Under the pieces are notes generated by a model, which saw only the letters and a program-made list of their open reading frames with translations, searched no databases and had not been told where the DNA came from. Shown piece by piece: positions 4,992 through 47,355 of a DNA stretch of 47,355 nucleotides. The DNA comes from a virus. The position numbers were made by a program, and so were the translations under genes. The stretch is taken from positions 1-47,355 of the IMG/VR virus record IMGVR_UViG_3300035698_012864, one strand, 5' to 3'. How positions within the stretch are numbered: the first letter of the stretch is position 1; the number at the start of each line of letters is the position of its first letter.

Positions 4992-5002
4992 GGAGGTTTT
5001 GT

Positions 5003-8000
5003 ATGGACCCAAGATACAAAAATGTTACACTGTTTGATCGTAGAAAAGAAGAATGGAATCATAGTGCATTACAAGAACACATTGATTCAATATTTGGTAC
5101 CGTTGAAATCATTGAAGGTTGGAAATACAATGGTGCGCATTGGATAGAAACATTACCAGTACAAAAGAAAGAAGAACTCAAAAAGCATATCTTTCGTGTT
5201 ATACGATGTAAGCTTACTGACCCTGCTGGAAAAGAGCATGAGTATAATCTCCAAATACCAGAGTTGATTAACGATCAATTCTTTTATATTGGTGGATTCC
5301 TCAAGGTTCCAATCTTCCAGATGTTTGATCTCCCAATCATTTATAGAAAAACACCTAAGGGCACGATGCTAAAACTTAGAACCAATGCTATCACATTGGG
5401 TGTTGATATGAATAGGCGAGATCAAAGTATTAACGTACAAGTGTTTAACAAGGATATTCCCTTTGGAACATTACTTGCAGCATTCCATACTAAGGAAGAA
5501 TGGACTGCATTCGTAGCTGCTCATAGCGGACCTAAGCCTGAACCAGTTTCAAGGATTGAGGAATTAGCAAATACTGCATGGGCACAGGAAATGACTTACG
5601 ACGAACGTTGTGAGCGTGTTGGTGAGTATTTCATGACTAAACCTAATGAGAAGCATAAACGAGGAGAGGGTATCCTGTTCTCATTGAAAGCTGCTTATGA
5701 GGTTGATCATTTCAGTAAGAGATTTTTCAAGCAGGACTCAATCCTACTCGAACTGTTAGATCATATTTGGAATGGTCCAAGAAGTGATACTGAGATTGGT
5801 TACAAGAGAATCAGATTAGCTGAATACATATTGTCACCATTAATTCATAAAGTGTATGACTTAATGGTTGCAACATTTAGGAACTATAAAGATAAGTTTC
5901 AGATTCCACAAAACTTAGTTCTTGATAGTTGTAGTTCTTCTACATCGAAAAATGGGAAGAACGATGTTGCGCACATCATTCATTACAATCTCCCTTACAA
6001 TCCAGTGAGCGAGATAGCAAGTCTATTGCAATGTAGTTTAGTTGGCCCTGGTGGTTTCAAGAAGGAAAACGTACCACCTCACTTGAGAAACTTAGATGAA
6101 AGTCAACTTGGATTGATTTGTGCTGCTGATACACCTGATAGAGAAGGTTGTGGTGTCATTAATAACATGGTTCCAATTACTAAATTGGATGAGAATGGGT
6201 TATTCATTTCACCAGAAGATGATACTGTCATAACATCATATCCTATTTCATTAGTACCATTTATGCAGAATGATGACCCAACAAGATTGCAGATGGCAAG
6301 TAATCAGTTGAAGCAAAGTATCTTACTTAAAGATGCTGAAAACCCTTGGATCAGATCTGGTACAGAAGGTGCTTACTTAGAGAGAACCAACTTCCTTCAA
6401 ATTGCAGAGCATGGTGGTAAAGTCATTTATAAAGATGTCGATTACATGATTGTTGCATATGATAATGAGGAAGAAGAAAATGTAGATGCATTTCAAATTG
6501 GCTATCGTCCATTGAATCAGGGTACAGTTGATATAGTAGAGACTACCCTTGATGTGGATGATGAGTTTATAGCTGGTGATACCCTTTGTAAATCTAGGTT
6601 TGTTAAAAATGATGAACTAGCTATAGGACAGAATCTCTTTACGGCTGTGATGGTTTGGAAAGGCTTTAACTATGAAGATGGAATTGTCATAGCAGAATCT
6701 GTTGTAAAGAAACTTACTTCACTTCATACTATTGATATGTCTTACAATGTTGAGTCTGGACAAGTATTACTAACACTTGAGGATGGGACTTATAAACCAT
6801 TCCCAGACATTGGACAGAGTGTTACAAAGGGTGAAGCATACGCTAAGATCAAAAACCTTGATCTCGAAACTGGGTATGAATCTATTAATGAAGAGTGTAG
6901 AGAACAGAATGCACCCAGAGATTGTGATATTGCTTCAATTGAAATATTCCCTAATGCTTGGAATAAGCAGATTGAAGAATTCTCTACCGCAATCCAAAAG
7001 ATGCAGAATGTTCAAACTAACAGATACTCTAGAATAGTTAATGCTATTGAACCATTTTTAGATGAAACAGGAATGGAGATATTCTTAAAGGTACATGGGC
7101 TATCAATTCTCAATTGTGATCAAGCAAGGGTTGGAAAGTTCCAACTCAAAAGTGAGAAGATTGGTGGTGTACTTTTCCGTGTACGTGGAGTATACGAGGA
7201 GTCAATTGGTATTGGTGACAAGATAGCAAATAGACACGGTAACAAGGGTGTCATTGCTAGAGTTGTACCTGATGCTGATATGCCATTGCTTGAGGATGGT
7301 AGACGGCCTGAGGTTATCATCAATCCTCTTGGTATCATTTCTCGTATCAATGTTGGACAGTTGTTTGAATTGCTCATGGGCGAATCATTATATCAACTCA
7401 GACAGAAATTGCATGATATGGAAGATCATTCATATCAAGAACTCCAAGCTATCAGAGGTAAGGTAGAAGAGTTTATGCGTGTAATTGATGTAACTCCTGA
7501 TCAATGGGCCACAGAGAAGATTCTAGAAGATTGGGATGCACATGATTTATCACTGGGTGCAGCGAAAGCAATCGAAGATCTCTATGTGATTCAACCACCA
7601 TTCTATTCTACTCCACCCGATAAGCTTATTGAAGCTATGGATCTCGTTGGTTCCAAATTTAAGTATAAAATGACTGATACGGAAAGTGGATTTGATATTG
7701 AGAATCCTATTGCGTGTGGTTATTTATACTTTGAAAAACTAATCCATAGGGCAAGTGATAAAATCTCAGCAAGATCTATTGGACCATACAATAGAAAAAC
7801 TTCTCAACCAATGGGAGGTAAAGTACATCAAGGTGGACATAGACTTGGTGAGATGGAAGTGTGGGCTTGGTTAGCACATGATAGTAAAGCATTCTTGAGA
7901 GACTTACTTACAATCCATTCGGATTCAATTGGTAAGAAACTAGAGATGCTTGCTCAAGTATTACAAAATCCAGATCTTGCTGAGACAGAAGATATGGATG

Positions 8001-8134
8001 ATACCCCTCAGTCTCTTAGAATTATGGAGGCATATTTGAACATCATTGGTCTTAATATGAGTTCTGATGATTTGAGAAAGAGTAATTTGACAGAATGTAT
8101 TGAAGCATCTATTCGCGGAGAACAGGATGATTGA
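5003..8134 (+). CDS. rpoB: DNA-directed RNA polymerase subunit beta (phage-encoded, complete)
   Basis: Second large catalytic subunit, 1043 residues, partner of the beta' encoded 11 bases upstream. Diagnostic segments: NPVSEIASLLQ...GPGG at ~333-350 (rifampicin-pocket/fork-loop region), CAADTPDREGCG (counterpart of CPIETPEGPNIG), GDKIANRHGNKG at ~737 with the conserved lysines, NPLGIISRINVGQLFE, and GGKVHQGGHRLGEMEVWA near 938. The ATG follows TAAGGAGG. The gene order beta' then beta is the reverse of the usual bacterial rpoB-rpoC order. Its stop overlaps the start of a 73-residue gene. Residues matching E. coli rifampicin contacts D516, H526 and R529 are Leu, Ser and Gln by manual alignment, so the enzyme is probably rifampicin-insensitive (inference). 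Confidence 0.97.
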   Translation: MDPRYKNVTLFDRRKEEWNHSALQEHIDSIFGTVEIIEGWKYNGAHWIETLPVQKKEELKKHIFRVIRCKLTDPAGKEHEYNLQIPELINDQFFYIGGFLKVPIFQMFDLPIIYRKTPKGTMLKLRTNAITLGVDMNRRDQSINVQVFNKDIPFGTLLAAFHTKEEWTAFVAAHSGPKPEPVSRIEELANTAWAQEMTYDERCERVGEYFMTKPNEKHKRGEGILFSLKAAYEVDHFSKRFFKQDSILLELLDHIWNGPRSDTEIGYKRIRLAEYILSPLIHKVYDLMVATFRNYKDKFQIPQNLVLDSCSSSTSKNGKNDVAHIIHYNLPYNPVSEIASLLQCSLVGPGGFKKENVPPHLRNLDESQLGLICAADTPDREGCGVINNMVPITKLDENGLFISPEDDTVITSYPISLVPFMQNDDPTRLQMASNQLKQSILLKDAENPWIRSGTEGAYLERTNFLQIAEHGGKVIYKDVDYMIVAYDNEEEENVDAFQIGYRPLNQGTVDIVETTLDVDDEFIAGDTLCKSRFVKNDELAIGQNLFTAVMVWKGFNYEDGIVIAESVVKKLTSLHTIDMSYNVESGQVLLTLEDGTYKPFPDIGQSVTKGEAYAKIKNLDLETGYESINEECREQNAPRDCDIASIEIFPNAWNKQIEEFSTAIQKMQNVQTNRYSRIVNAIEPFLDETGMEIFLKVHGLSILNCDQARVGKFQLKSEKIGGVLFRVRGVYEESIGIGDKIANRHGNKGVIARVVPDADMPLLEDGRRPEVIINPLGIISRINVGQLFELLMGESLYQLRQKLHDMEDHSYQELQAIRGKVEEFMRVIDVTPDQWATEKILEDWDAHDLSLGAAKAIEDLYVIQPPFYSTPPDKLIEAMDLVGSKFKYKMTDTESGFDIENPIACGYLYFEKLIHRASDKISARSIGPYNRKTSQPMGGKVHQGGHRLGEMEVWAWLAHDSKAFLRDLLTIHSDSIGKKLEMLAQVLQNPDLAETEDMDDTPQSLRIMEAYLNIIGLNMSSDDLRKSNLTECIEASIRGEQDD

Positions 8135-19296: not shown

Positions 19297-21018
19297 ATGA
19301 ATGCACCAATCAAGTTAAATGCTAAGTCGGTAGAGTTTGCAAGAAAGCGAAACTACTATAAACGTCATCCAATTAAATTTATTGAGAATAATGTATATCT
19401 TCCTATTGCTGGTGGTAGCAAGTTGATGAAATTATATGATCCTCAAAAGAAAATTGTTATTGACTTCTTTAATCATCACAACTTAATTCTTCTCAAGTCT
19501 AGACAGATTGGTATGTCGACCCTTTGCCAGGCGCTCATTGTTTACTTGTTTACATTCTTTGAAAATTGTGTAGTAGGTATTCTTTCAAGGGATGGTGCTG
19601 AGTCTTCTGATTTCTGTTACAAGACGTTAGCTATGTTAGATCAGCTTCCAGAATATTTGAAAATAGGATTCCATAACAGGTCTCGCCAATTCTTTATTAT
19701 GGAAAATGGTTGCCAGTTACACACTGAAGCTGTATCAAGAGAAAACCCAGGTAAAGTATTCCGTTCAAAAAGTATCAATATGCTTATTGTTGATGAGGCT
19801 GCACACATTCTTAATGTTGATGAAGCATGGACTGGTATTGGTAGTACACTTTCTAAAGCACAGCCTGATGCAGAAAAAGCAGGAGTTCCTTTTGGAACTA
19901 TTATTCTTTCTACTCCTAATAAAACTGAAGGTATTGGTAAATGGTTTTACTCAATGTGGACAGGTGGTATTAGAGGTGATAACGCATTCAGACCTCATAA
20001 GATACACTGGACAGAAATTCCTTCATTTGTAGAAGATCCTAATTGGTATGAACACCAATGTAAAATGCTGAACAACAATAAGAAGAAGATTGCACAGGAA
20101 CTAGAGTTAAAATTTGTTGGTGCTGAAGGTGCATTATTCCCAGAAGATGTTCAAATTAAGCTACAAGATAATTCCGTTGATCCAACTGAAATAATGGAAG
20201 TCCCACTTGTAGGAAATAAAGGATCACTTTGGAGATTTAAGAAAATAGAAAGAGGACACTTCCATTTAATTGGAGTTGATGCTGCAACTGAAGCTGGTGA
20301 TGATAAATGTGCAGTTGAAGTAATTGATTATGAAACAATGGAACAAGTAATGGAGTTCCATGGTGATATCGATCCAAAAGAACTTACAGATATAGTAAAG
20401 CTTATATGCGTTCACTGTCCTCACAATGTAGTTATTGTAGATAACCAGGGTGGTTATGGTCAATCTGTCATATATGAATTAACATATGATGATGAAATAG
20501 AGTACAATATATATGGAACGTATAGGGGTAAAGACCAAAAGACGTTTATACCTGGCTTACCTATAAGTGTTAAAACTCGTCCTCTGATACTCGATGCACT
20601 CTATGACTACGTTACACACGATCCAGACATTATCTACAGCCAGAGGCTCTCTTCCGAGCTATTAGGGCTTGTTAATAAGGGTAGTCGTGTAGAAGCAGAC
20701 AAGGGGTTCCATGATGATTTGGCTTTAGCTTATGCTTACTGTTGTTATATTAGAAAATATCAAAGTGAATTTCTTGGAGAGATACAGGGTCTTCCAGAAG
20801 ATGAAGCACAATTGGTATTTACAAAAGATACACTAGAGATGATGAGAGGACTCAATGGTGAAGCCGTCTTCGCTGGTGATAGAAAACAGGCTATAGAAAC
20901 TGGAAAAGAAGATCCTGATTTTAGAACTAACTTGAATAAATATGTACGAGAGAAAGTTATGTCAGGCGAGATGACAGGTGTTATTGACGTGACGGCGCTG
21001 TTTGGTGAAACTTTCTAA
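19297..21018 (+). CDS. terL: terminase large subunit
   Basis: DNA-packaging motor with ATPase and nuclease halves, 573 residues. The ATPase half shows the Q-motif/Walker A segment KSRQIGMST at ~67-75, Walker B LIVDEAA with D166-E167, and a coupling motif in IILSTPNKTEGIGKWF. The nuclease half has an RNase H-like set of acids in GVDAATEAGDD (near 327), VVIVDNQGGYG and FHDDLALAYA. Length and motif order are typical, so packaging function is very likely. No small terminase gene was recognised nearby. A second, ATPase-only and apparently inactive relative is encoded at 45610-46347. Confidence 0.95.
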   Translation: MNAPIKLNAKSVEFARKRNYYKRHPIKFIENNVYLPIAGGSKLMKLYDPQKKIVIDFFNHHNLILLKSRQIGMSTLCQALIVYLFTFFENCVVGILSRDGAESSDFCYKTLAMLDQLPEYLKIGFHNRSRQFFIMENGCQLHTEAVSRENPGKVFRSKSINMLIVDEAAHILNVDEAWTGIGSTLSKAQPDAEKAGVPFGTIILSTPNKTEGIGKWFYSMWTGGIRGDNAFRPHKIHWTEIPSFVEDPNWYEHQCKMLNNNKKKIAQELELKFVGAEGALFPEDVQIKLQDNSVDPTEIMEVPLVGNKGSLWRFKKIERGHFHLIGVDAATEAGDDKCAVEVIDYETMEQVMEFHGDIDPKELTDIVKLICVHCPHNVVIVDNQGGYGQSVIYELTYDDEIEYNIYGTYRGKDQKTFIPGLPISVKTRPLILDALYDYVTHDPDIIYSQRLSSELLGLVNKGSRVEADKGFHDDLALAYAYCCYIRKYQSEFLGEIQGLPEDEAQLVFTKDTLEMMRGLNGEAVFAGDRKQAIETGKEDPDFRTNLNKYVREKVMSGEMTGVIDVTALFGETF

Positions 21019-21029
21019 AGGAGTAGGCC

Positions 21030-24000
21030 GTGATTAGAGATTTATCGCAAGAAGGAAATTCTCCAGGTTCTTCATCCTCTGTCCCTAAAAATAAAAGTGG
21101 CGCAATGCCTAATAAATCTTTCTTTAATGATTATAGAGAGAAAGTAAATACTGGACAGAAGACAAAACAAATGTCAGATGTCACATCATCTGTAAAAGAA
21201 CTCACGGGAGAAATGCGACAACTCAGACGAGATATGAAGAGGGGCGCTGGTGGTATTGCTGGAAAGTCTGAGGGTAAACAACAAATAGCATTAGATTCTG
21301 GATCATCCGCTATAATGAAGGGTGGCGCTAAAGAAATGGCGCATAGTGCCAAATCCATTTCAATGTCTACTAAAGAAATGGCAAAACATACAAGTCTGTT
21401 TTCAAAATCAGTTGATCGTTTTGGATCAATGTCTAAAAATTCAGTAGACAAAATGTCCAGAAGTGTAGCAAGACTTGCTTCTCATGCTGCGGCTGCACCT
21501 AAAGCTGGGTTAGCTGCTGCTGGTAAAGGAGCAGGAAAGGCTGCTGCGTTTGCTTCTAATAGTGATGTATCTAGACAATTTCAAACTGACATGGAGGAGA
21601 TGAAGCAAGCTGGCCGTGAGCAAATGATGAATATGTTGTTCCTGGGTAATCCTCTTTTCTCTTATATGGGACAAGGTGCAATCAAAGGATTATCTCCCTT
21701 AGTTAAAAAAGCTTGGGGAAAGATGAAACAACATAAAGAGAAAGGTGGTGGTGGTGAAGAAGCTTTAATGCGACATCAAGGTGGATTAATCTTTGCGCAT
21801 GAAGGAAATGTAATTCGTGATCCTAAAGGACAAAAGCGTCCTCTACAAAAAGATGAGAAAATTACTGTACTGAAAGAGGGTGAGACAGTTCTACCTACGC
21901 ATGAAAAGAACTTCATGCAAAAGTTTAGTAAATCCATTGCTGAAGGTGTTGTTAATGCTCAAAGTAGACGTGATATCACTAAAAAGAGACCTACTAGAAT
22001 CACATCTCAAACTCCAGCAATCAGCCTTCCTCAGAATAGATATTTCCAAGAGATGCAAAATGTATTAGAAGAATCTCAAAAATTAATGACCATGAACACA
22101 TATGGTAGAAAAACTTCACCTAGTGGAATTAAAATGGCATTTTCTCATGCGGTTGTTCCATTTGCTAGTAAATATAAATCAGAACTTAAAGCAACTGATA
22201 ATATGGGTGTACTTGGAGGTATGCTTAGTACACTTACACAAATGTATTCTACTGGACGTGCCCAATCAAGTGATATGCTACAACAAGTACATCAGCAAAC
22301 AAGAGTTCTAGCAGCAGGATTAAGAGTTGAAGGAAAACTTAAATTACCTAAATCAATGTCAATGACTCAGGCGACAGTAAGCTTAATTAAACGTCAAACT
22401 GTTGGTAGAGTTAAAAAGTCATATGCTGATTCTATGGATAAGATGTTTGGTACAAAGAAACAAATTAAACTTAGTGATGATAAGGATGGTGGTTCTCAGG
22501 CCGGTATGACTGAAACCAATGCATTACTTGAAAAACTTATTAGGATGACTGCGTTTACTGGGCCTGTGGGAAAACGAGTTGCTGCACCTAAGTTATCAAT
22601 GAGTGTAGAGCAAATAACTAAGAATGCTGCACGTACCGCATTAATCAATAGAGCAGAAAGTGTTAAAGAAAATAGTAGTGGTATACGTAATGGGGGATTG
22701 ATTGGTGGAATGACCCATTCTATGATGGGTAGAGGTATGATGGCTGGAGATAAAGGTAAAGCAGCTTTATCCAAATATGGTAAATATATGGAAGGGCCTG
22801 ATGCTGATGTACTTTCACAGGGGCTAAATGTTGGAAAGCAAATGGTTGGTGGTGCATTAACGGAAATGAAAGGAGCCGGTCAATGGGCTAAAAATGCTCC
22901 TGGTAAACTTAAATATGCGGCTGGTGGACTTAAAGCGAAAGCTAAAGATAGAATTAAAAAAAGTAAACCTGCTAAACGAATAAAAAGTTATATGGATGAA
23001 TCTTCCCTTAAAAATATTCCATTTTGGACAAGAAGGTATAAATCACAATTAGAAGATTGGGCCACCGCAGATGCAAATTCTGGTATGAAAGAAGGACTGA
23101 AAAAGATTTCTGGATTGGCTAGATCTGTAATTCCTGATTCCGATGATGAAGCTAAAGCTAAAGTTTATAAAGAATTAGTAAAATCTATGCATGCAACATA
23201 TAAAGCTGCTAAAGATAAAAAAATTTCCGATACTGCAAATATAAGTGGTAATGCATCACAAACTACTCAACGTTTAGGTATGTTAGAGAAAGGGTTTGAA
23301 GGCCCACAATCTGTTGGTATGCAAGGTATTCAACCAGGTGGTACTTTTAATAGAACAAAAGAATTTGGTGCATCTAAAACACCTGGACAATATGATCAAT
23401 GGAAAGGTGATAAAGACGCATCATGGAGAAAATCTAAACAATCATGGGGTGGTAAAAAAGGAGCACTTACTAAAAAGCTTAATAAATTATCAGCAGGTGG
23501 AGTTGGTGGTGACATTGATGGTATTGCAGATGTCATGGGACAATTGATAGGACATGATTTTGATAAACCTTCACGCCCAGATACCTCAGAAGAAGCATTT
23601 AAAACTGATACTGATAAGAAAAGAGCTGAAAAGAAAAAGAAGAAAATGTCCAAGGAATCTAATCAGTCCGGTGGTGTAGCTGGTAATATAGATATTGCTG
23701 GTAGTGGTACAATCAGACCTGATGCTGATATTCAAGGCGAGAATGAACAAGTAATTCTAACTAGAACAGCTACAATTCTCAAGAAATCTCTAGAAGAAGG
23801 AATTGCACAAGGAGAAGAACTTAAAGTACAAACAGGACTCCTTAAATTCCAAAATAAAGATATTCGAGAAGATGAAGGTGAAGAAGCAGAAGCTAAGAAG
23901 AAAGGTATCTGGGGTAAAATGTTCGGTGGTAGAGGTGGTAAGAAGGAGAAGGGTAAGAAGGATGGTGGTATGATGAACTTCCTCAAGGGTCCTTGGGGAA

Positions 24001-27000
24001 AGGTTCTTGGAATGCTTGGAGTAGGATTTGGTTTACCCGCAGTTGGTGCATTGTTTGGTGGTAAAGATCTAGGCAAGATGGGTAAAGCTGCACTTGTTGG
24101 TGCAGGTATTGGTGCTATATTTGGATTACCTCTTGGTCCTGCTGGTATGTTATTAGGTGCTTCAGCTGGTGCTGCTATCGGTGGTTTGATGGCTAACTCA
24201 GAATTGAAGCCTATGGAATGGGTAGCTGCACAAGTTGGTGTTGTTTGGAGAGAACGAGATCAAGCTTGGAAGGGAGCAGCGGTTGGTGGTATACTTGGTT
24301 TCATGATGGGTGGACCAATAGGTGCGCTTGCTGGTTCTGCATTTGGTGCATGGGCAATTTCTAAAATGCAAGAATTTAAGGAGGGAGAACAGGGTGACAC
24401 TATGAGTCAAAAAGCCCTGAACATACTTCTTCCAGATATGAATTATGCAAGTTCAGCAGCGTATGGTGCATTACCTGGTGGTATAATGGGATTCATGCTT
24501 GGTGGTCCAGCTGGTGCCGCTGCTGGTGCTGCATTAGGTGGTTGGGTCGCTATGAGAAGTGCTGAATTCATGTCAGAAAATCCAGAAAGTGGTGTTACTA
24601 AATTATGGAAGACACTAGGATTGAAAGAACATTCTATGGGTGCATCTGCTGGTGCAACTGTTGGTGCTGTAATTGGATTTATGTTTGGTGGCCCAGTAGG
24701 AATGATTGCTGGTGCTGCTGCTGGAACATTAGTTGGTGCAAGTATTGCCCGTATACTATCTATGAGTCAAGAACAAGAAAAAGAACAGGCAAAACAAAAG
24801 AAAACATTTGATAAACGGCGAGTCCAGGATATGGGTGAAGCTGGTACTGTTTCTACCTCTATGGCTTTTAAAATAGGAAAGAAACAAGGTAAAGTTGGTA
24901 CTCATAAAATTCATGATATGAGAAAGGCACTGAAAGATGCAAGGAAAATAGGATTAAATGCTGGAGCTGGGTTAGAACCAGGCAGTAAAGAATGGGTGGC
25001 GGCGATGGCGGAAGGATTGAGACAACGTGATGAGCGTATGGAGGAATTGAAGGCCCATCCAGATTACATAGCAATGGCTCAATCTGATCGTGGTCTCAAA
25101 ACAGAAATTCTTCAAGCAAGGAAAGAAACATCAAAGTGGTGGCCGTCAAATTGGATGAGGGGAAAAGAAGCCAACCAACGAATTGATGAATTAAATGCAA
25201 AGTATGGTGGAATAGGAGAAGATATAATAGAGGATGCCTCATTTAATCTTGGAACGATGGGGCGATTTAAAGATGCGGCTGGTAAACAAGTTATTAAAAA
25301 AGGATTAGTAGCTTCTTCAGACTTAACATTAAAAAAACAATTAGCGTTTGCTACGGAAGAACTTAAACATGCAGAACTCACACTAGCTCCATATAATGAT
25401 CCTAGTCATTATGATACTATATATACAACTAATAGGGGTGGTACAACCAGTCAAAAAGTTGAAAAACCAATGTGGGTAGACGCACATGCACTAGCATTAG
25501 CTAGAAGAGATAATCTAAAGGCTGATCTTTCTGATATTCAAAGGAAAATAGATAAAGAAACATCAGATAAACAAAAGATAGCTGATTCGAAAAAAGGTGG
25601 GATGTTTCAATCTGCATATGGAGCAAAACATAGCATACCTAGTGATGGTGCAATAGCACCATTTGTTGGTGGACCATTGAAAGGTGCAATGGCTACTTCT
25701 GGATTTGGTAATAGACTTGATCCAATAACAGGTAGACCAGCATTCCATGATGGTGTTGATATGGTAGGAAAAGGTAGTGCCGTATCTGCTACAAGTGGTG
25801 GTATAGTTCTTAGTGTTGGTAAGAAGGGCGATAGAGGGACTGTTGTAGAAGTAGTACAAATGAATGGTAAGATTGCGTCTTACGATCACCTTGCTTCAAC
25901 TAATGTAAAAGAAGGAGAGTGGGTAAGTAGTGGTTCAGTGATTGGACAAGTTGGTAGTAGTGGAAGATCAACTGGTAAACACTTACATTATAAAGAGGAA
26001 TCATTTGCAGGTGGGAAGAGAGTTCCTGTTGCACCAATGGGTGGAGCAATGTTGGCTACAAGAATGACAGATGCAATGGGTAATCCAATGTCCACTAGTG
26101 TTGCAAAAACTGATCTTCAAAAATATAGAGAAACTACTCCAGAGAAACAAAACAAGGGACTATTCCAAACACTAACAGATGGAATAATGGGTATCAAAGA
26201 TGGCGGTGGGAAGTTCTTAGATCAATATGGTGAACCTGTTAAAAAGAGTGTGGTTGGTGGAATGGGTAGTGTTCTTGCTCTTCTTGGGCAATTATTCTCT
26301 CAAATATTCAATGGCGTATCTGATGCAGTGACAGAGGGTGTTAAGAGTCCTAAAAAACTTGGTGAATTAGCAGATGCATGGGAACCTAAAGCAACTGGTG
26401 GAGGAGTGAGTTCAGGTTATCGTGAAATGTTTAAGGGAACAAAATTTAAAGACCGTAGTGGTTCTAGTTATGCTGGTGCTCTTGGTAACATGATTAAAAT
26501 GCACGAAGCTTCTTCCACAAGTGGTGCTAAGTTAAAAGCATATAAAGATACTAGAGGTTTTTGGACTATTGGTTATGGTCATAAAATAAAGTCAAGTGAA
26601 AAAGACAATCTGATGAATAGGAAAATAACTGAAGAAGAAGCACAACACTTATTTATGACTGATCTATCACACGCAGCACTTGGTGTGAATGAACTACTAG
26701 GTACAAGTGCTTCAAGTATTGATCCATATAGATTTGCTGCATTAACAGACATGTCATACAATATGGGTGCAGGTAATATGAGTAGTGGCCTTGGTGGATT
26801 CCAAAATATGTGGAAGAAACTAAAATCAGGAGATACGCTCGGAGCTAGTGCAGAGATTCTTGATTCTCAATATGCAAAACAAGTAGGTAAGCGTTCATTA
26901 GGTGTATCTCAATTAATGGCAACTGGTGGAGCTCAAGCTTCTAAGGAATCTCCTAATTATATATTGAAGCTTATGCGTAAGGCAAAAGATAAAGCTACTG

Positions 27001-27986
27001 CTGGTGGTACAGTCAGAGGAGCAGCCGGGCATGCATGGGAAAGTATCAAGGGTTCCGGTATTACTAGAAGTATGGTAGATAAATGGCAATCATTAAAAGA
27101 AAAGTCTAAAAGCTTATTAGCAAACCAAACATTCTGGCCACCTACTCAAGGATATTTAACTAGTCCAATGGGTTTGAGAGATGGTAAAATGCACAAGGGT
27201 GTAGATATTGGTGGCAATGATGGCACACCAATTAGATCAGTATGGCCCGGTGTTGTATCTAGAGTTGTACTTAATCCAGGAAGTAAAACTGGTGCTGGAA
27301 ACTTTGTAGTTGTTAATCATGGTCATGGCATTTATTCTAAATACATGCATATGAAGGATGACTCTATATCTGTAACTAAGGATCAACATATTGGAGCTGG
27401 TGAAACACTTGGACTTGTTGGTAATACTGGAGGATCACGTGGTCCTCACCTACACTTCGAGATTGGTGAAAATGAATATCAAAATAATAATACCTCTATT
27501 ATTGATCCACAATATCTATTTTCCAAACTTCCATTTGCCCCAAATAATTTCTCACCTGGAGGATTAGCTTCTTCTGTAAAAAGTATGATGACTACTCAAA
27601 ATGTAGCTGATGCATCATTAGATCCAACTGCATCAAGTGCTCCAGAAATAATGGATGGAAGCATGACTGGTGGTGGTGGCTCAGAAACCCAACAGAGTAC
27701 GGGGATTAATACTAAGAGGCTTATTAAGCTTCAAGTTAATAAAGACTCAGTAATGCATTCAATGTTTGGAAATGAGCTTGGTAAAAAGAATTCAGATCTA
27801 TCTAGAACACTAGACAAGCTTATTGGTGGGCAGCAAATTATGAATGGCGTCACTAATAATATAACGAAGGGTGGTGATAGTAGTAGCAGTAGTGGAGGTG
27901 GTGGCGGTAGTGATAACGCACTCCAAGGACAAGTAGAAGCAGTCTTAGCCGCAATCCTAGACGGGCGTGGATACGTACACTCTTAA
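21030..27986 (+). CDS. tape-measure-like tail protein with two M23 peptidase domains and a GH24 lysozyme domain
   Basis: GTG start 13 bases after AAAGGAG; 2318 residues. The N-terminal ~950 residues are Lys/Ser/Gly/Met-rich, mostly helical, as in tape measures. Residues ~985-1245 contain tandem glycine-zipper hydrophobic modules. An M23 domain at ~1540-1665 has HDGVD and HLHY zinc ligands. A T4-lysozyme-like GH24 domain at ~1815-1965 has MHEAS (catalytic Glu), YKDTRG and WTIGYGH. A second M23 domain at ~2030-2165 has HKGVD and HLHFEI. All key residues appear intact. It would set tail length and open the peptidoglycan during DNA entry. Calling it the tape measure rests on size, position after the terminase and composition. 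It ends in a Gly/Ser-rich tail. Confidence 0.85.
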   Translation: MIRDLSQEGNSPGSSSSVPKNKSGAMPNKSFFNDYREKVNTGQKTKQMSDVTSSVKELTGEMRQLRRDMKRGAGGIAGKSEGKQQIALDSGSSAIMKGGAKEMAHSAKSISMSTKEMAKHTSLFSKSVDRFGSMSKNSVDKMSRSVARLASHAAAAPKAGLAAAGKGAGKAAAFASNSDVSRQFQTDMEEMKQAGREQMMNMLFLGNPLFSYMGQGAIKGLSPLVKKAWGKMKQHKEKGGGGEEALMRHQGGLIFAHEGNVIRDPKGQKRPLQKDEKITVLKEGETVLPTHEKNFMQKFSKSIAEGVVNAQSRRDITKKRPTRITSQTPAISLPQNRYFQEMQNVLEESQKLMTMNTYGRKTSPSGIKMAFSHAVVPFASKYKSELKATDNMGVLGGMLSTLTQMYSTGRAQSSDMLQQVHQQTRVLAAGLRVEGKLKLPKSMSMTQATVSLIKRQTVGRVKKSYADSMDKMFGTKKQIKLSDDKDGGSQAGMTETNALLEKLIRMTAFTGPVGKRVAAPKLSMSVEQITKNAARTALINRAESVKENSSGIRNGGLIGGMTHSMMGRGMMAGDKGKAALSKYGKYMEGPDADVLSQGLNVGKQMVGGALTEMKGAGQWAKNAPGKLKYAAGGLKAKAKDRIKKSKPAKRIKSYMDESSLKNIPFWTRRYKSQLEDWATADANSGMKEGLKKISGLARSVIPDSDDEAKAKVYKELVKSMHATYKAAKDKKISDTANISGNASQTTQRLGMLEKGFEGPQSVGMQGIQPGGTFNRTKEFGASKTPGQYDQWKGDKDASWRKSKQSWGGKKGALTKKLNKLSAGGVGGDIDGIADVMGQLIGHDFDKPSRPDTSEEAFKTDTDKKRAEKKKKKMSKESNQSGGVAGNIDIAGSGTIRPDADIQGENEQVILTRTATILKKSLEEGIAQGEELKVQTGLLKFQNKDIREDEGEEAEAKKKGIWGKMFGGRGGKKEKGKKDGGMMNFLKGPWGKVLGMLGVGFGLPAVGALFGGKDLGKMGKAALVGAGIGAIFGLPLGPAGMLLGASAGAAIGGLMANSELKPMEWVAAQVGVVWRERDQAWKGAAVGGILGFMMGGPIGALAGSAFGAWAISKMQEFKEGEQGDTMSQKALNILLPDMNYASSAAYGALPGGIMGFMLGGPAGAAAGAALGGWVAMRSAEFMSENPESGVTKLWKTLGLKEHSMGASAGATVGAVIGFMFGGPVGMIAGAAAGTLVGASIARILSMSQEQEKEQAKQKKTFDKRRVQDMGEAGTVSTSMAFKIGKKQGKVGTHKIHDMRKALKDARKIGLNAGAGLEPGSKEWVAAMAEGLRQRDERMEELKAHPDYIAMAQSDRGLKTEILQARKETSKWWPSNWMRGKEANQRIDELNAKYGGIGEDIIEDASFNLGTMGRFKDAAGKQVIKKGLVASSDLTLKKQLAFATEELKHAELTLAPYNDPSHYDTIYTTNRGGTTSQKVEKPMWVDAHALALARRDNLKADLSDIQRKIDKETSDKQKIADSKKGGMFQSAYGAKHSIPSDGAIAPFVGGPLKGAMATSGFGNRLDPITGRPAFHDGVDMVGKGSAVSATSGGIVLSVGKKGDRGTVVEVVQMNGKIASYDHLASTNVKEGEWVSSGSVIGQVGSSGRSTGKHLHYKEESFAGGKRVPVAPMGGAMLATRMTDAMGNPMSTSVAKTDLQKYRETTPEKQNKGLFQTLTDGIMGIKDGGGKFLDQYGEPVKKSVVGGMGSVLALLGQLFSQIFNGVSDAVTEGVKSPKKLGELADAWEPKATGGGVSSGYREMFKGTKFKDRSGSSYAGALGNMIKMHEASSTSGAKLKAYKDTRGFWTIGYGHKIKSSEKDNLMNRKITEEEAQHLFMTDLSHAALGVNELLGTSASSIDPYRFAALTDMSYNMGAGNMSSGLGGFQNMWKKLKSGDTLGASAEILDSQYAKQVGKRSLGVSQLMATGGAQASKESPNYILKLMRKAKDKATAGGTVRGAAGHAWESIKGSGITRSMVDKWQSLKEKSKSLLANQTFWPPTQGYLTSPMGLRDGKMHKGVDIGGNDGTPIRSVWPGVVSRVVLNPGSKTGAGNFVVVNHGHGIYSKYMHMKDDSISVTKDQHIGAGETLGLVGNTGGSRGPHLHFEIGENEYQNNNTSIIDPQYLFSKLPFAPNNFSPGGLASSVKSMMTTQNVADASLDPTASSAPEIMDGSMTGGGGSETQQSTGINTKRLIKLQVNKDSVMHSMFGNELGKKNSDLSRTLDKLIGGQQIMNGVTNNITKGGDSSSSSGGGGGSDNALQGQVEAVLAAILDGRGYVHS
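24085..24770 (+). repeat. tandem glycine-zipper modules encoded in the tape-measure-like gene
   Basis: Four similar hydrophobic modules near residues 1020, 1083, 1147 and 1208, spaced by about 62 residues. Each reads like GAxxGxxxGFMxGGPxGxxAGAAxG, for example GGILGFMMGGPIGALAGSAF. Each could form a helical hairpin that inserts in a membrane. A fifth, weaker version precedes them near residue 1000. Confidence 0.7.
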
Positions 27987-40610: not shown

Positions 40611-42011
40611 ATGATGGATGCGGGTGCAGTTAATAAGTTTATGAAACAATCAAACTCTCAGATTCCCAATGGGATGGTTGTTAAAAAAGGTATGAGTGTT
40701 GCAGGTGGTCTAGTATCTACTGCTGGAGTTAATATCAAAAAAGGTCTAAAAGTCAAAACTGGGCCAGTTGATCTTAATGGTATTCCAATGCTTCCTTCAT
40801 TACCATCATTGCCAGATATGCCAGCAATACCAGATTTGAATAGCATGATACCAGACTTAAAAAGTATGGTACCAGATTTGAATGAAATGATGCCTGACTT
40901 AAATTCTCTCGTTGCTGGTGGTGATCTGCTACCAGATTTGAATGAAATGCTCCCTGACATAAATAGTTTTGTGCCAGATATAAATACCATGCTACCAGAC
41001 ATGGGTACATTGGTGCCAGACATGAATACTATGCTCCCAGATATAAATAGTCTTCTCGTCGATGACCTTGGAGCATCATTAGACCCAGGTGGGTTACTCC
41101 CAGATTTAAATACATTTGTACCTGACATGAATTCATATGTTCCAGCAATGGATGGATTTATACCAGAAGTACCTGGAGATGATTTAAATGCATACATACC
41201 TGATATAAATAGTTTTATGCCTGATATGAATAGTTTCATGCCAACTAATTTGGATAGTATTGTTCCAGGTATTGATGGGAATATACCTGATATCAATGCA
41301 GCAACTGGTGATATGAATACTCTTATGCCAGATATGAATAAGTTTAAAACAGATGAAGCTGGAATGGTTCCAGATATGAATACGTATGTTCCAGATTTGA
41401 ATAGTTTTGTGCCTGACTTGAATGCATATATGCCAGCTGATATAGCTAGTACAATGCCTGATGTGAATGCATTAGTCCCAGATATAAAAAGCACCCTCCC
41501 AGATGTAAATTCATTTATACCAGGTAAGACAGATATGATGCCTGACTTGGATAGCTTTACACCAGATGTGAATAATTTAGTTCCAGATTTAAATGGACTT
41601 GTTCCAGATCCAGAAGGGTTGCTTCCTGATATGAATGAGTTCATGCCTGACATGAATGAGTTCATGCCTGCATCTATGAATTCATTCATGCCAAATGTAA
41701 CTGGGATGGTTCCAGATATGAGTACACTTATACCTGACATGAATACAATGCTTCCCGATATGAATAGTTTCATACCAGATATGAGTGAGATAATGCCTGA
41801 CTTTGAATCATTGATGCCAGATATAAATGGGTTGATGCCTGATATAAATAGTTTTATGCCTGATATGGCTAGTTTCATACCACCATTTATAACAGAGATG
41901 CCATTAGGGTCATTATTTGCATTACCAAACATGATGTTAATGATTAAAATACCGTTAACAGATATGTTAACTCCAGTACATGATGCACTGGGTGATTTCA
42001 GCATTCCATAG
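40611..42011 (+). CDS. heptapeptide-repeat (PDxN) protein, 466 aa
   Basis: After ~50 N-terminal residues the protein consists almost wholly of ~7-residue units of the form (V/I/M/L)PD(M/L/I/V)N(S/T/E)(F/M/L), for example VPDLNSF and MPDMNSF. I count about 37 units with an intact PD pair plus degenerate ones up to residue ~425. The last ~40 residues are hydrophobic (LFALPNMMLMIKIPLT). The strict period with hydrophobic and Asp/Asn positions suggests a solenoid or fibrous rod, possibly calcium-binding; this is inference, and I know no family for it. The ribosome binding site CTTGGAGGT is the same 9-mer as before sheath and tube genes, so high expression is likely. The antisense frame is also open but is a by-product of the repeat. 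Confidence 0.8.
   Translation: MMDAGAVNKFMKQSNSQIPNGMVVKKGMSVAGGLVSTAGVNIKKGLKVKTGPVDLNGIPMLPSLPSLPDMPAIPDLNSMIPDLKSMVPDLNEMMPDLNSLVAGGDLLPDLNEMLPDINSFVPDINTMLPDMGTLVPDMNTMLPDINSLLVDDLGASLDPGGLLPDLNTFVPDMNSYVPAMDGFIPEVPGDDLNAYIPDINSFMPDMNSFMPTNLDSIVPGIDGNIPDINAATGDMNTLMPDMNKFKTDEAGMVPDMNTYVPDLNSFVPDLNAYMPADIASTMPDVNALVPDIKSTLPDVNSFIPGKTDMMPDLDSFTPDVNNLVPDLNGLVPDPEGLLPDMNEFMPDMNEFMPASMNSFMPNVTGMVPDMSTLIPDMNTMLPDMNSFIPDMSEIMPDFESLMPDINGLMPDINSFMPDMASFIPPFITEMPLGSLFALPNMMLMIKIPLTDMLTPVHDALGDFSIP
40770..41890 (+). repeat. 21-base degenerate tandem repeat encoding PDxN heptads
   Basis: The unit is roughly CC(A/T)GA(T/C)(A/T)TGAATAG(T/C)TT(T/C)(A/G)T. Units vary at third positions and in length at a few breaks (around 41060-41100, 41240-41300 and 41520). 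Confidence 0.75.
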
Positions 42012-44436: not shown

Positions 44437-44454
44437 GGTTCTATGCATAGAACC
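44437..44454. promoter_or_regulatory. perfect 18-bp palindrome, operator candidate
   Basis: GGTTCTATGCATAGAACC is fully self-complementary. It lies 42 bases upstream of the first gene of the GC-rich cassette, next to an AT-rich TATATATTAAAT stretch. A dimeric regulator site is more likely than a terminator because no U-tract follows. Confidence 0.5.
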
Positions 44455-44496
44455 ATATATATTAAATAGTGTATGAAGCACACTAACGGAGGGAAG

Positions 44497-44595
44497 ATGA
44501 GCTTATTGGATAAGTTACGGTGTGAGATGGACCTGCTCCACTGGGAGTTGGATGAAACGAAACGATTAGTCGCAACCAGCCAGGATATCTGGTAG
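44497..44595 (+). CDS. microprotein, 32 aa, first gene of the GC-rich cassette
   Basis: ACGGAGGGAAG gives an excellent ribosome binding site before the ATG. The product begins MSLLDKLRCEMDLLHWELDE and ends QDIW, a short amphipathic helix with Leu/Trp positions. The next gene follows after ten bases. Function unknown; it is below the length at which chance can be excluded, but the binding site and spacing argue that it is translated. Confidence 0.55.
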   Translation: MSLLDKLRCEMDLLHWELDETKRLVATSQDIW

Positions 44596-44605
44596 AAAGA
44601 AACCC

Positions 44606-44863
44606 ATGACACTTTTTGAAATTAACAAGCATGTGATGATGTCGTGTATCGGGCGCAGATTCCTCAAACCGGATGACACCGGGGTAAAGGGAACGTTGCC
44701 GATGATCTCTATGAATGAGATCAATGTCGTTGCTACAACCCGCGTTCAGCATAACGAATGGTTGCTGGAACGAATGAAATGGTACGAATTCAATTACGCC
44801 TTTTTCAATGCGTTTATCGACGCAGAAGTCGCAACCGTAATCGCAGAACACCAGGCCTACTAA
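44606..44863 (+). CDS. hypothetical protein, 85 aa (GC-rich cassette)
   Basis: Helical small protein with RRFLKPDDTG in the N-terminal half and LLERMKWYEFNYAFFNAFIDA near the end. Its codon choice (GCG, CGC, CCG, GTC) is unlike the flanking tail genes, which use A/T at third positions. The ribosome binding site is weak (AGAAAGAAACCC). No family is recognised. Confidence 0.6.
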   Translation: MTLFEINKHVMMSCIGRRFLKPDDTGVKGTLPMISMNEINVVATTRVQHNEWLLERMKWYEFNYAFFNAFIDAEVATVIAEHQAY

Positions 44864-44907
44864 AAGTAGCTGGTCCAACAACGTATCTGAAAGGACTGAG
44901 TGTATAA

Positions 44908-45198
44908 ATGTCTGAAGTACATATCATCCACGTGGAGTATCATCGCAATTGTCACGAAGATGGACCCATTGCATGGGCGCAACGAGAGCTTCCTGATAAC
45001 GCCGATTGTGATCTCATTAAGAAGCTCCTTACTGAGACTGTAACCGCGGCGTTATACAGCCTCATGAATTGGATCTATTCTCAAGGAAAGTTCACTGGAG
45101 ACTACGATCTTAACGACTTTGATATGAGGTTGTACTCATATACACGGGATGGGTTGGCAACTCCGATGACATTACCACCTCCTCGTCCGGAGTTGTGA
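44908..45198 (+). CDS. hypothetical protein, 96 aa (GC-rich cassette)
   Basis: GAAAGGACTGAG lies ~12-17 bases upstream of the ATG. The protein has an N-terminal strand with several His residues (VHIIHVEYHRNCHEDG), a helical middle and a Pro-rich end (LPPPRPEL). Composition is GC-richer than the phage average. No family is recognised. The next gene starts one base after its stop. Confidence 0.6.
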   Translation: MSEVHIIHVEYHRNCHEDGPIAWAQRELPDNADCDLIKKLLTETVTAALYSLMNWIYSQGKFTGDYDLNDFDMRLYSYTRDGLATPMTLPPPRPEL

Positions 45199-45199
45199 T

Positions 45200-45547
45200 A
45201 TGGCAGAACGGCCGTGGTGGTGGCCTACGGAAGCTAATGAGGCTTGGGCCAAAAACTTTCGGAAAAGATATGGTGTAAGCGGGGAGATACCTCTCAAACG
45301 ACTGAAGGATAATGCCAATCAAGGACGAGGCTGGGTAGTAACATGGGACCACTCGGACAATGCGTATGAAGAGTACAAGAAGATGGCGGAGATGTTGGTG
45401 AAGATGGAGAATGCTCTGAAGATCATCCGGGCAGACATACGGTATCTGGTAGAGGAGGGAACTCTGCCAGCGAATGTGGTTACTACACATCCGTCAATTA
45501 CCGGGTTAGATCAATTGTTGAAAGAGTGTGCAGGAACAACTGAGTGA
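45200..45547 (+). CDS. hypothetical protein, 115 aa (GC-rich cassette)
   Basis: The start lies one base after the previous stop, with GGAG upstream, so the two are cotranslated. A Trp-rich N-terminus (RPWWWPTEANEAW) is followed by a charged helical region (YEEYKKMAEMLVKMENALKI) that may form a coiled coil. It is the most GC-rich gene of the cassette and is closed by a bidirectional terminator. No family is recognised. Confidence 0.65.
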   Translation: MAERPWWWPTEANEAWAKNFRKRYGVSGEIPLKRLKDNANQGRGWVVTWDHSDNAYEEYKKMAEMLVKMENALKIIRADIRYLVEEGTLPANVVTTHPSITGLDQLLKECAGTTE

Positions 45548-45559
45548 ACTTCATTCGTG

Positions 45560-45594
45560 AAAAAATGGGAGTCCGTTGAGGGCTCCCATTTTTT
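45560..45594. terminator. bidirectional intrinsic terminator
   Basis: AAAAAATGGGAG and CTCCCATTTTTT form a 12-bp stem, extended by TCC/GGG around GTTGA. T runs lie on both strands, so it can end the plus-strand cassette and the minus-strand terminase paralogue. On the minus strand the tail reads ATTTTTTCACG. Confidence 0.9.
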
Positions 45595-45609
45595 TGTTTG
45601 ATTTTATGT

Positions 45610-46347
45610 CTAGATTAATTCAAATTCTTTCTTCATTCTGGTACTATGAGACGCTGTCAAATTCTTAATCGTATCAGCATTCATATACTCATCTTCATTT
45701 AGATAATCATAATGCATATACAATGGTGTAAAACCAGTCTGTCCCATCATTGTATCATTCCATGTATTTTGAAACCATGTATCACCACTTCCACCAGATG
45801 ATGCTATTATCATTTTATATAGAGGATCTTTTTGCTGATATGCACGGGCGGCTATTCCCATCATAACAGGCCAAGCTTCCGCCATATGAGCAATCCATCC
45901 AGCATTATTGACTATTACTATATTTGGTTGCTTCGAGCACAATACTTTTTCAGCATGTTGACGGTTAGGTGCTACAACATCTCCATATATCGTACACCCA
46001 TTTGTTAAACGTATGATATTAGGACCCTTAGTCACATAGTCTACTTGAAGTGCTTTTGGAAATTTATCTATTTTGCGTATACATTTTTCTATAAATCGAC
46101 CAACTGAATCCCAACTTCTATCTACATATGCTATCTCAACATTCTCATGTTGAACAGTCATGTAATATGCACATATGCATGATAGTAATTTATCAACACC
46201 CACTTGTCTAGAATGTAACATTATTGTTTCTGTATGTTTATTGATAGATCTCAGTGCATACCGTTGTAGCACATTCAATTTTAATGGAGATGTCTCACCA
46301 TATCTATCTCTAGTCATATTTCTTTCTATAAATGTTTGACTAATCAC
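45610..46347 (-). CDS. terminase-like ATPase-domain paralogue with degenerate catalytic motifs
   Basis: 245 residues from a GTG start (GAGG eight bases upstream). The frame aligns along its length with the ATPase half of the terminase at 19297: LHSRQVGVDK against LKSRQIGMST, LTNGCTIYGDVVAPNRQHAEKV against MENGCQLHTEAVSRENPGKV, NIVIVNNAGWI against NMLIVDEAAHI, and IIASSGGSGDTWF against IILSTPNKTEGIGKWF. The Walker A Ser/Thr is replaced (D52-K53), and the Walker B Asp-Glu pair is Asn-Asn (147-148), so ATP hydrolysis is unlikely. It stops where the nuclease half would begin. The intact frame, normal start and conserved length argue for a maintained protein instead of debris. A regulatory or structural packaging role is inference. 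Confidence 0.75.
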   Translation of the reverse strand: MISQTFIERNMTRDRYGETSPLKLNVLQRYALRSINKHTETIMLHSRQVGVDKLLSCICAYYMTVQHENVEIAYVDRSWDSVGRFIEKCIRKIDKFPKALQVDYVTKGPNIIRLTNGCTIYGDVVAPNRQHAEKVLCSKQPNIVIVNNAGWIAHMAEAWPVMMGIAARAYQQKDPLYKMIIASSGGSGDTWFQNTWNDTMMGQTGFTPLYMHYDYLNEDEYMNADTIKNLTASHSTRMKKEFELI

Positions 46348-46357
46348 TATAATACCT

Positions 46358-47355
46358 CTACATGTTATTCAAAAAGTTAGCAACGTCTTCTAAGGTTTGG
46401 CTCCAATGCCCACCATTTCGGATTACCATTTCACCAACCGCCTTCAATGATTTGAGTTGGACATCAGTAAATTGAGTAACCCCATCCTTCTCTACAAAAC
46501 AAAAGATAGTTTTTTCTGGACGTTTATTACTATCATCAATCACTTCAGCAATGGGATATACTCCTGTCATTCTTGGAGTAATTACATACAAACAAAACTC
46601 GCACGATTCTCGTTGTTTGATCTCTTCAGCCATGCAATCTTCAGTCCAATCATCTACTACAGGATTGAAATAATCTATCTTCAGAAGCTTGATTAACCTT
46701 TCTCTCCAATCTGATTTATTGCATGTTCCACCTAAAAATACTTTCGGCATAGGATTATCCTTTTTTGTTTTACCATTAACCAAAGTTTCAAATTTATCCA
46801 TTAGACCCTTCTCACCGCACTCTTCTACTACTTTAAGGAACGCTGCCAATTCATCATCACGAGACATATCAAACTGTACATCCCATAATTCTAGTTCCAT
46901 TGCAATTTCTACACGAGCAACATATGATAGTTCAAGATATTTGTATGTAAGTAGTCTTTTAGTTAGATATTCTGGATTGGACGGAATGTGTCTACATACA
47001 TAATCATGCTTATATGCATCAAATGTTATAAGTGTTAAATCAGTTACTAATCCAGTTGCATCTATCTTCCCTAACCCTCTAACTCCAAAATAAGAAGTGC
47101 CTGAGTTGAATGCTTTACCCATATCATTATCTAATGGTTCACAATCCGCATATAACACATTCCCTTCAAATTGAAAGTTACTTAACGTGCATACTGCATT
47201 CCTATACTGTACAGTGATAGAATTGATAGCAAGTTCTGTTGTCGATGGTTCATACTCACATAATAAAAACCCATCTTTATGTTTGGCTAATTCTCTTTCC
47301 ATATCTTTTTTGAGAAATATTTTACCTGTTCTAGTAGGTTTTCCACATGTTAAAA
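46358..47355 (-). CDS. prohead-protease-like region fused to a nucleoside 2-deoxyribosyltransferase-like domain (5' partial)
   Basis: The frame stays open to the right edge (in-frame KPTRTGKIFLKKD before the first visible ATG at 47302), so the gene probably starts outside the window. The C-terminal ~130 residues (KVFLGGTCNKSDWRERL, FNPVVDDWTED, YVITPRMTGVYPIAEVID) match the PF15891-type nucleoside 2-deoxyribosyltransferase-like family. The N-terminal ~130 residues follow the outline of phage prohead proteases: an N/T-R-x-G-K start, CEYEPSTTELAI where GHP..(I/D)L is usual, and YFGVRGLGKID where GVSSRG is usual. The protease His and Ser are therefore apparently absent. The second assignment is tentative. 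Confidence 0.6.
   Translation of the reverse strand, partial: LTCGKPTRTGKIFLKKDMERELAKHKDGFLLCEYEPSTTELAINSITVQYRNAVCTLSNFQFEGNVLYADCEPLDNDMGKAFNSGTSYFGVRGLGKIDATGLVTDLTLITFDAYKHDYVCRHIPSNPEYLTKRLLTYKYLELSYVARVEIAMELELWDVQFDMSRDDELAAFLKVVEECGEKGLMDKFETLVNGKTKKDNPMPKVFLGGTCNKSDWRERLIKLLKIDYFNPVVDDWTEDCMAEEIKQRESCEFCLYVITPRMTGVYPIAEVIDDSNKRPEKTIFCFVEKDGVTQFTDVQLKSLKAVGEMVIRNGGHWSQTLEDVANFLNNM

Follow-up and report, generated by a model that had tools for sequence, protein, structure and literature searches.

A predicted non-catalytic paralogue of the terminase large subunit encoded beside a degenerate prohead-protease domain in a T4-type phage

The window, the whole stretch of 47,355 nucleotides analysed here (IMG/VR record IMGVR_UViG_3300035698_012864), is a 47-kb viral contig of a T4-type myophage. 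It encodes two RNA polymerase subunits, the terminase large subunit (TerL), and baseplate, tube and sheath proteins, and relatives of the phage were found with sizes of up to 201 kb and 236 kb. The RNA polymerase subunits β' (907 aa) and β (1043 aa) adjoined each other on the plus strand (2268-8134), and a 105-kb relative (G008) gave two matches to each of them. Also encoded on the plus strand were a protein of 2318 aa (21030-27986) carrying a phage lysozyme domain and a peptidase M23 domain near the C-terminus and a 466-aa protein made up mostly of 'PDLNSFMPDMN'-like repeats (40611-42011); the matching place in relative G034 was occupied by an ORF of just 115 aa (L238:2877-3224). The TerL of the 201-kb relative (G038; L320) had a long low-complexity loop inserted in its ATPase domain past motif III.

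Synteny with the relatives extended from the polymerase genes through the sheath gene and then broke off, which places the gene under study (45610-46347, hereafter pseudo-TerL) in an accessory region, behind a GC-rich, foreign-looking stretch of 1.1 kb. This stretch (44450-45550) had a GC content of 46-50%, the genome having 36.5%, and contained three short plus-strand ORFs of atypical codon usage; for the ORF at 45200-45547, no match was found among phage records. In relatives, genes judged by eye to be homing-endonuclease-like lay close to those for tube and sheath (L238:1-1974, L240:5020-6717, L242:4522-5904), so the tube/sheath region may be a hot spot for insertions.

The features of the locus are listed in Table 1. 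The pseudo-TerL frame comprised 245 codons from its GTG start with zero internal stops. Its GC content (0.35) and third-position GC content (0.23) equalled those of the phage, and its codon usage lay within the spread seen for core genes of equal length. The encoded protein spanned the full TerL ATPase domain and terminated where the linker to the nuclease domain begins; the C-terminal nuclease domain was absent, the stop codon and the terminator following directly. The original prediction, made from the sequence alone, had described an uninterrupted frame with a ribosome binding site and a terminator and without a nuclease half, and all of these features were recovered. A split terminase was ruled out, as the phage's own TerL was intact. 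The end of the gene upstream was separated from the pseudo-TerL start by ten bases, suggesting that the two are probably translated together.

Table 1. Coordinates of the pseudo-TerL operon, its former catalytic motifs and the phage's own TerL gene
Feature	Position	Strand	Basis
Intact TerL (ATPase and nuclease domains), most likely parent of the duplicate	19297-21018	+	
Strong bidirectional intrinsic terminator hairpin, end of the operon	45557-45597		
Pseudo-TerL ATPase domain, 245 aa (P0001)	45610-46347	-	
Former motif III, ASSG (TerL STPN; STP to ASS)	45793-45804	-	alignment
Former Walker B acidic pair, Asn-Asn (own TerL Asp-Glu; VDEA to VNNA)	45904-45909	-	alignment
Cys137, Arg in 33/33 TerLs (R156), 11 residues before the Walker B Glu	45937-45939	-	
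Former Walker A/P-loop, HSRQVGVDK (own TerL KSRQIGMST)	46189-46215	-	alignment
Shine-Dalgarno AGAGG, 7 nt before the pseudo-TerL GTG, overlapping the stop codon of the upstream gene	46355-46359	-	read directly
Upstream gene, in one operon with pseudo-TerL; 314 aa from the ATG at 47302, frame continuing open as far as the edge of the contig	46358-47353	-	
Intact nucleoside 2-deoxyribosyltransferase-like domain (PF15891), C-terminal 128 residues	46361-46744	-	
Possible GAAD adaptor-like helical domain; 23.5 bits (Pfam cut-off 23.6)	46775-46957	-	
Degenerate prohead-protease (T4 gp21-type) domain, N-terminal 110 residues, catalytic His and Ser lost	47015-47335	-	

Pseudo-TerL shared 26% identity with the window's own TerL over 215 aa (BLASTP, E 2e-21). 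When about 1,000 ORFs from the window and nine relatives were searched with an HMM of the ATPase domains of 33 TerLs, from which pseudo-TerL had been left out, pseudo-TerL scored 89 bits (E 1.2e-26) and no further TerL-ATPase duplicate was detected. Single-protein scans against Pfam and PHROG missed pseudo-TerL, a sign of its strong divergence. The AlphaFold2 model had a pLDDT of 91, and its best Foldseek match was T4 gp17 (E 1e-15, TM 0.79), followed by the terminases of T7, P74-26, HK97, Sf6 and D6E; the input alignment consisted of TerLs, so that the model is consistent with the assignment and is not independent evidence for it. Pseudo-TerL had been proposed to duplicate the ATPase domain of the phage's own TerL and to fold as terminase ATPases do, and the sequence comparisons, the structure prediction and the trees described below bore this out.

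In a maximum-likelihood tree of 33 rows, pseudo-TerL was sister to the phage's own TerL (support 100/92). Its end branch was about 5 (over 5) changes per site, compared with 0.12 for TerL, and the rejection of other placements was only weak (AU p 0.04-0.06). A second tree included closer TerLs (49% and 42% overall) from contigs identified by their tail-tube gene; pseudo-TerL still grouped with the own TerL (96/84), and a pairing of the own TerL with the TerL of the 236-kb relative to the exclusion of pseudo-TerL was rejected (AU p 0.005). Further, pseudo-TerL and TerL had clade-specific indels in common, such as a longer loop before Walker B. From these sequence relationships, the duplication most likely occurred in this phage's own lineage, although a branch of such length leaves room for doubt. 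This origin also bears on the idea that the final 1.8 kb derive from another phage through a chimeric assembly, for which one could point to the nearness of the gene to the contig edge, its position behind the 1.1-kb GC-rich stretch and the end of synteny at the sheath gene. A chimera is nevertheless very improbable, given that pseudo-TerL is sister to the TerL of this same phage and agrees with its core genes in codon usage and GC content.

The catalytic motifs were compared in the alignment with the 33 TerLs. Conservation in at least 90% of them was seen at 34 columns, and pseudo-TerL differed at 21 of these: all nine catalytic columns, each conserved in 31-33 of the 33 TerLs, and 12 of the remaining 25. 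In this TerL clade the classical P-loop position (GMST/GIST) is not a Lys; the conserved Lys is found at the start of the loop instead (KSRQ). In the Walker A region, K67, S74 and T75 of TerL corresponded to H45, D52 and K53, and in Walker B, D166 and E167 corresponded to N147 and N148. The Asp-Lys in place of the Walker A Ser/Thr and the Asn-Asn in place of the Walker B Asp-Glu had been noted in the original prediction; the losses of the Lys before the P-loop, of the Arg before the Walker B Glu and of motif III add to these. The TerL counterpart of Cys137, R156, may be the trans-acting arginine finger; it is a candidate position, as the arginine that acts in trans varies between phage terminases (PMC5727402). 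Residues Q28, R47, Q48, G50, N116, G117, G186 and G188, which include the Q motif and the P-loop RQxG as well as several positions of structural importance, were kept. Judged by its sequence, pseudo-TerL is catalytically dead, and ATP-driven DNA translocation by it is predicted to be absent. Because several defining features of TerL were looked for and found missing, it is classed here as a pseudoenzyme derived from TerL and not as a functional terminase. No description of a catalytically dead TerL paralogue was found in the open-access papers searched. Herpesvirus pUL28 was considered as an already known pseudo-ATPase and dismissed, since the account of that protein reports no features of an ATPase.

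What the module does is, in our view, best indicated by the upstream gene, which carries a dead prohead-protease domain overlooked in the original prediction. When its first 141 residues were used as a query, all 21 matches listed besides itself were gp21-type proteases. A gp21 HMM scored the protease-like domain at 14.9 bits, compared with at most 2.9 in 2,000 shuffles, and a single BLASTP comparison with the protease of Alishewanella phage Slicko01 gave an E value of 3e-8; the PHROG prohead-protease model (phrog_207) did not match the domain. Foldseek placed 5jbl (T4 gp21) among the top matches (E 0.02) of an AlphaFold2 model that was of low confidence (58) and whose input alignment held gp21s, so this result is supportive only. 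The His motif GELDHP was changed to TELAIN and the Ser motif GISSRG to FGVRG. A normal protease was retained elsewhere in the genome of the 201-kb relative.

The C-terminal part of the upstream gene, in turn, scored 37.7 bits with PF15891 (cut-off 30) and kept the invariant residues G6, T7, R14, N27, P28 and E67. No other part of the operon was as well conserved, and a dN of about 0.25 with saturated dS indicated that this domain is under purifying selection. Among 80 relatives of the transferase-like domain, none was fused to such an N-terminal part or had a TerL-like neighbor.

Judging from the catalytic residues that are missing, two disarmed head enzymes, a dead TerL ATPase and a dead prohead protease, are thus paired in one operon, a pairing for which chance or decay is a poor explanation.

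Tailed phages normally carry one TerL. No second TerL copy was found in the 201-kb and 236-kb relatives or in about 60 other contigs, the sole match being the full-length TerL, and relatives recovered by their tail tube carried just their TerL. The upstream partner gene had no match in the relatives either. The nearest relative (G034, 72% tube identity) stops short of the informative place. As the 201-kb and 236-kb relatives each have one TerL, the module appears to be lineage-specific and accessory, a point absent from the original prediction. No orthologue of pseudo-TerL was found by tblastn in 50,697 phage records, the inspected rows being TerLs or unannotated sites like them in T4-type phages, and none was found in plasmids or by a scan of IMG/VR with the protein itself. 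Searches of IMG/VR with DNA patterns around NNAGWI and S[KE]...VNNA yielded sites that were chance matches in other frames. No relatives of this phage were found among GTDB genome contigs.

This distribution, together with the branch of over 5 changes per site, the loss of all catalytic motifs and the adjacent insert of atypical composition, could indicate a recent and selectively irrelevant copy that is being lost. In simulations of neutral drift to about 29% identity, however, frames acquired a mean of 12 stop codons and 0 of 500 stayed open, while pseudo-TerL had none; neutral drift never reached 245 codons free of stops and frameshifts at 24-26% identity. Neutral decay does not explain the open frame. 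A Shine-Dalgarno sequence and a terminator are also present, and the gene directly follows one with a C-terminal domain subject to purifying selection, so that a decaying remnant is improbable. The earlier claim of a maintained frame was upheld by the simulations, by the core-like codon usage and by this position behind a gene with a conserved domain.

If the gene is maintained, its product would have kept the fold, lost catalysis and been retained as a pseudoenzyme that only binds. Two disarmed prohead enzymes, both with open frames and both in one accessory operon, are most simply read together as proteins whose binding surfaces are in use. Pseudo-TerL would dock at the usual sites of TerL, the portal vertex or the TerL ring, and the dead protease would dock in the prohead core and bring the transferase along; with these sites filled and no work done, head maturation and DNA packaging would be blocked or delayed. 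The heads of co-infecting related phages are the most probable target, although the choice between a rival's head and the phage's own is a guess. Because conflict is suggested both by the module's accessory distribution and by its fast divergence, interference with co-infecting phages is ranked first: we tentatively favor the view that pseudo-TerL is a lineage-specific, maintained, binding-only mimic that hinders head maturation and packaging, most probably those of related phages in the same cell. The interface residues of pseudo-TerL may have diverged too, and a decoy derived from TerL could equally harm its own phage. The more elaborate form of the proposal, a two-gene weapon or switch in which the dead protease brings a live transferase to the prohead and the dead TerL jams or gates the packaging of related phages or of its own, is rather unlikely.

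Regulation or structure within the phage's own head is ranked second, behind interference with co-infecting phages. Both pseudoenzymes would then act in their own head, for example in the timing of packaging, as a portal plug or as a carrier of the deoxyribosyltransferase as cargo. The derivation of the duplicate from the phage's own TerL fits this reading, as its ancestral partners would be the phage's own. T4-type and giant phages also provide known cases of duplicated head proteins with a changed role; gp24 of T4 was derived from gp23 by duplication, and a diverged prohead-protease paralogue occurs in the giant phages SPN3US, 201phi2-1 and PhiPA3 (PMC5694885). Yet the module was absent in all relatives seen, near-complete ones included, and would therefore be unneeded for head assembly in the clade, and structural parts do not usually diverge so rapidly. 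We consider an own-head role possible but doubtful. The original prediction had suggested that pseudo-TerL could cap or gate the portal, stand in for the missing small terminase subunit or counteract host nucleases; the present observations speak neither for nor against these roles.

The fold might instead be reused outside the head, with pseudo-TerL serving as a decoy for immune sensors that recognize TerL, or as a nucleotide-pool or conflict factor together with its deoxyribosyltransferase-like partner. TerL is recognized by host Avs3, and the complex 8dgc was among the structural matches of pseudo-TerL. Avs can still be triggered by catalytically dead TerL, so a decoy would need to bind without activating it. 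For the partner, the transferase-like domain is the best conserved in the operon, and the possible GAAD adaptor recalls bacterial conflict systems, from which GAAD adaptors and DRHyd-like effectors are known (PMC7159879); the GAAD match, however, was 0.1 bit below the cut-off, and neither protein was matched by any defense-system model. A function outside the head is accordingly held to be unlikely, though less so than decay.

Should the module dock on head machinery, this would be a case of phages turning copies of their packaging motor and maturation protease to use as binding parts. Such docking would serve competition between phages or the control of packaging, and it would offer a natural dominant-negative tool for studies of the motor. 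The pairing of the disarmed head enzymes predicts binding to portal, TerL or prohead core.

With T4 gp17-type TerLs (Terminase_6N), pseudo-TerL shares the ASCE fold, the Q motif, the P-loop Arg within RQxG and the clade-specific indels. It differs from them in being without the Walker A Ser/Thr or Lys, the Walker B Asp-Glu, motif III, the Arg before Walker B and the nuclease domain, and in being a second gene besides an intact TerL. The C-terminus of the upstream gene is 60-73% identical to standalone phage proteins of the PF15891 family and shares all invariant residues with them, but almost all of the 80 examined stand alone at about 130 aa, unlike the fused upstream gene.

For the upstream gene, SPN3US gp117, 201phi2-1 gp206 and PhiPA3 gp143 are a precedent as a second head-maturation enzyme of doubtful catalytic ability (PMC5694885). 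Of the catalytic residues, the His alone fails to align in SPN3US gp117, with Ser and Asp in register, whereas both His and Ser are lost in the upstream gene, whose protease-like domain, unlike the giant-phage paralogue, is fused to a deoxyribosyltransferase-like domain; the available part of that account mentions no TerL paralogue for the giant phages with the protease paralogue (PMC5694885). A functional parallel is Tab, the tail assembly blocker of a Pseudomonas prophage, which is likewise a phage-encoded block of the virion assembly of another phage, as proposed here (PMC10884400). Tab acts on the tail, through the tape measure protein (PMC10884400), whereas pseudo-TerL and its partner would act on the head.
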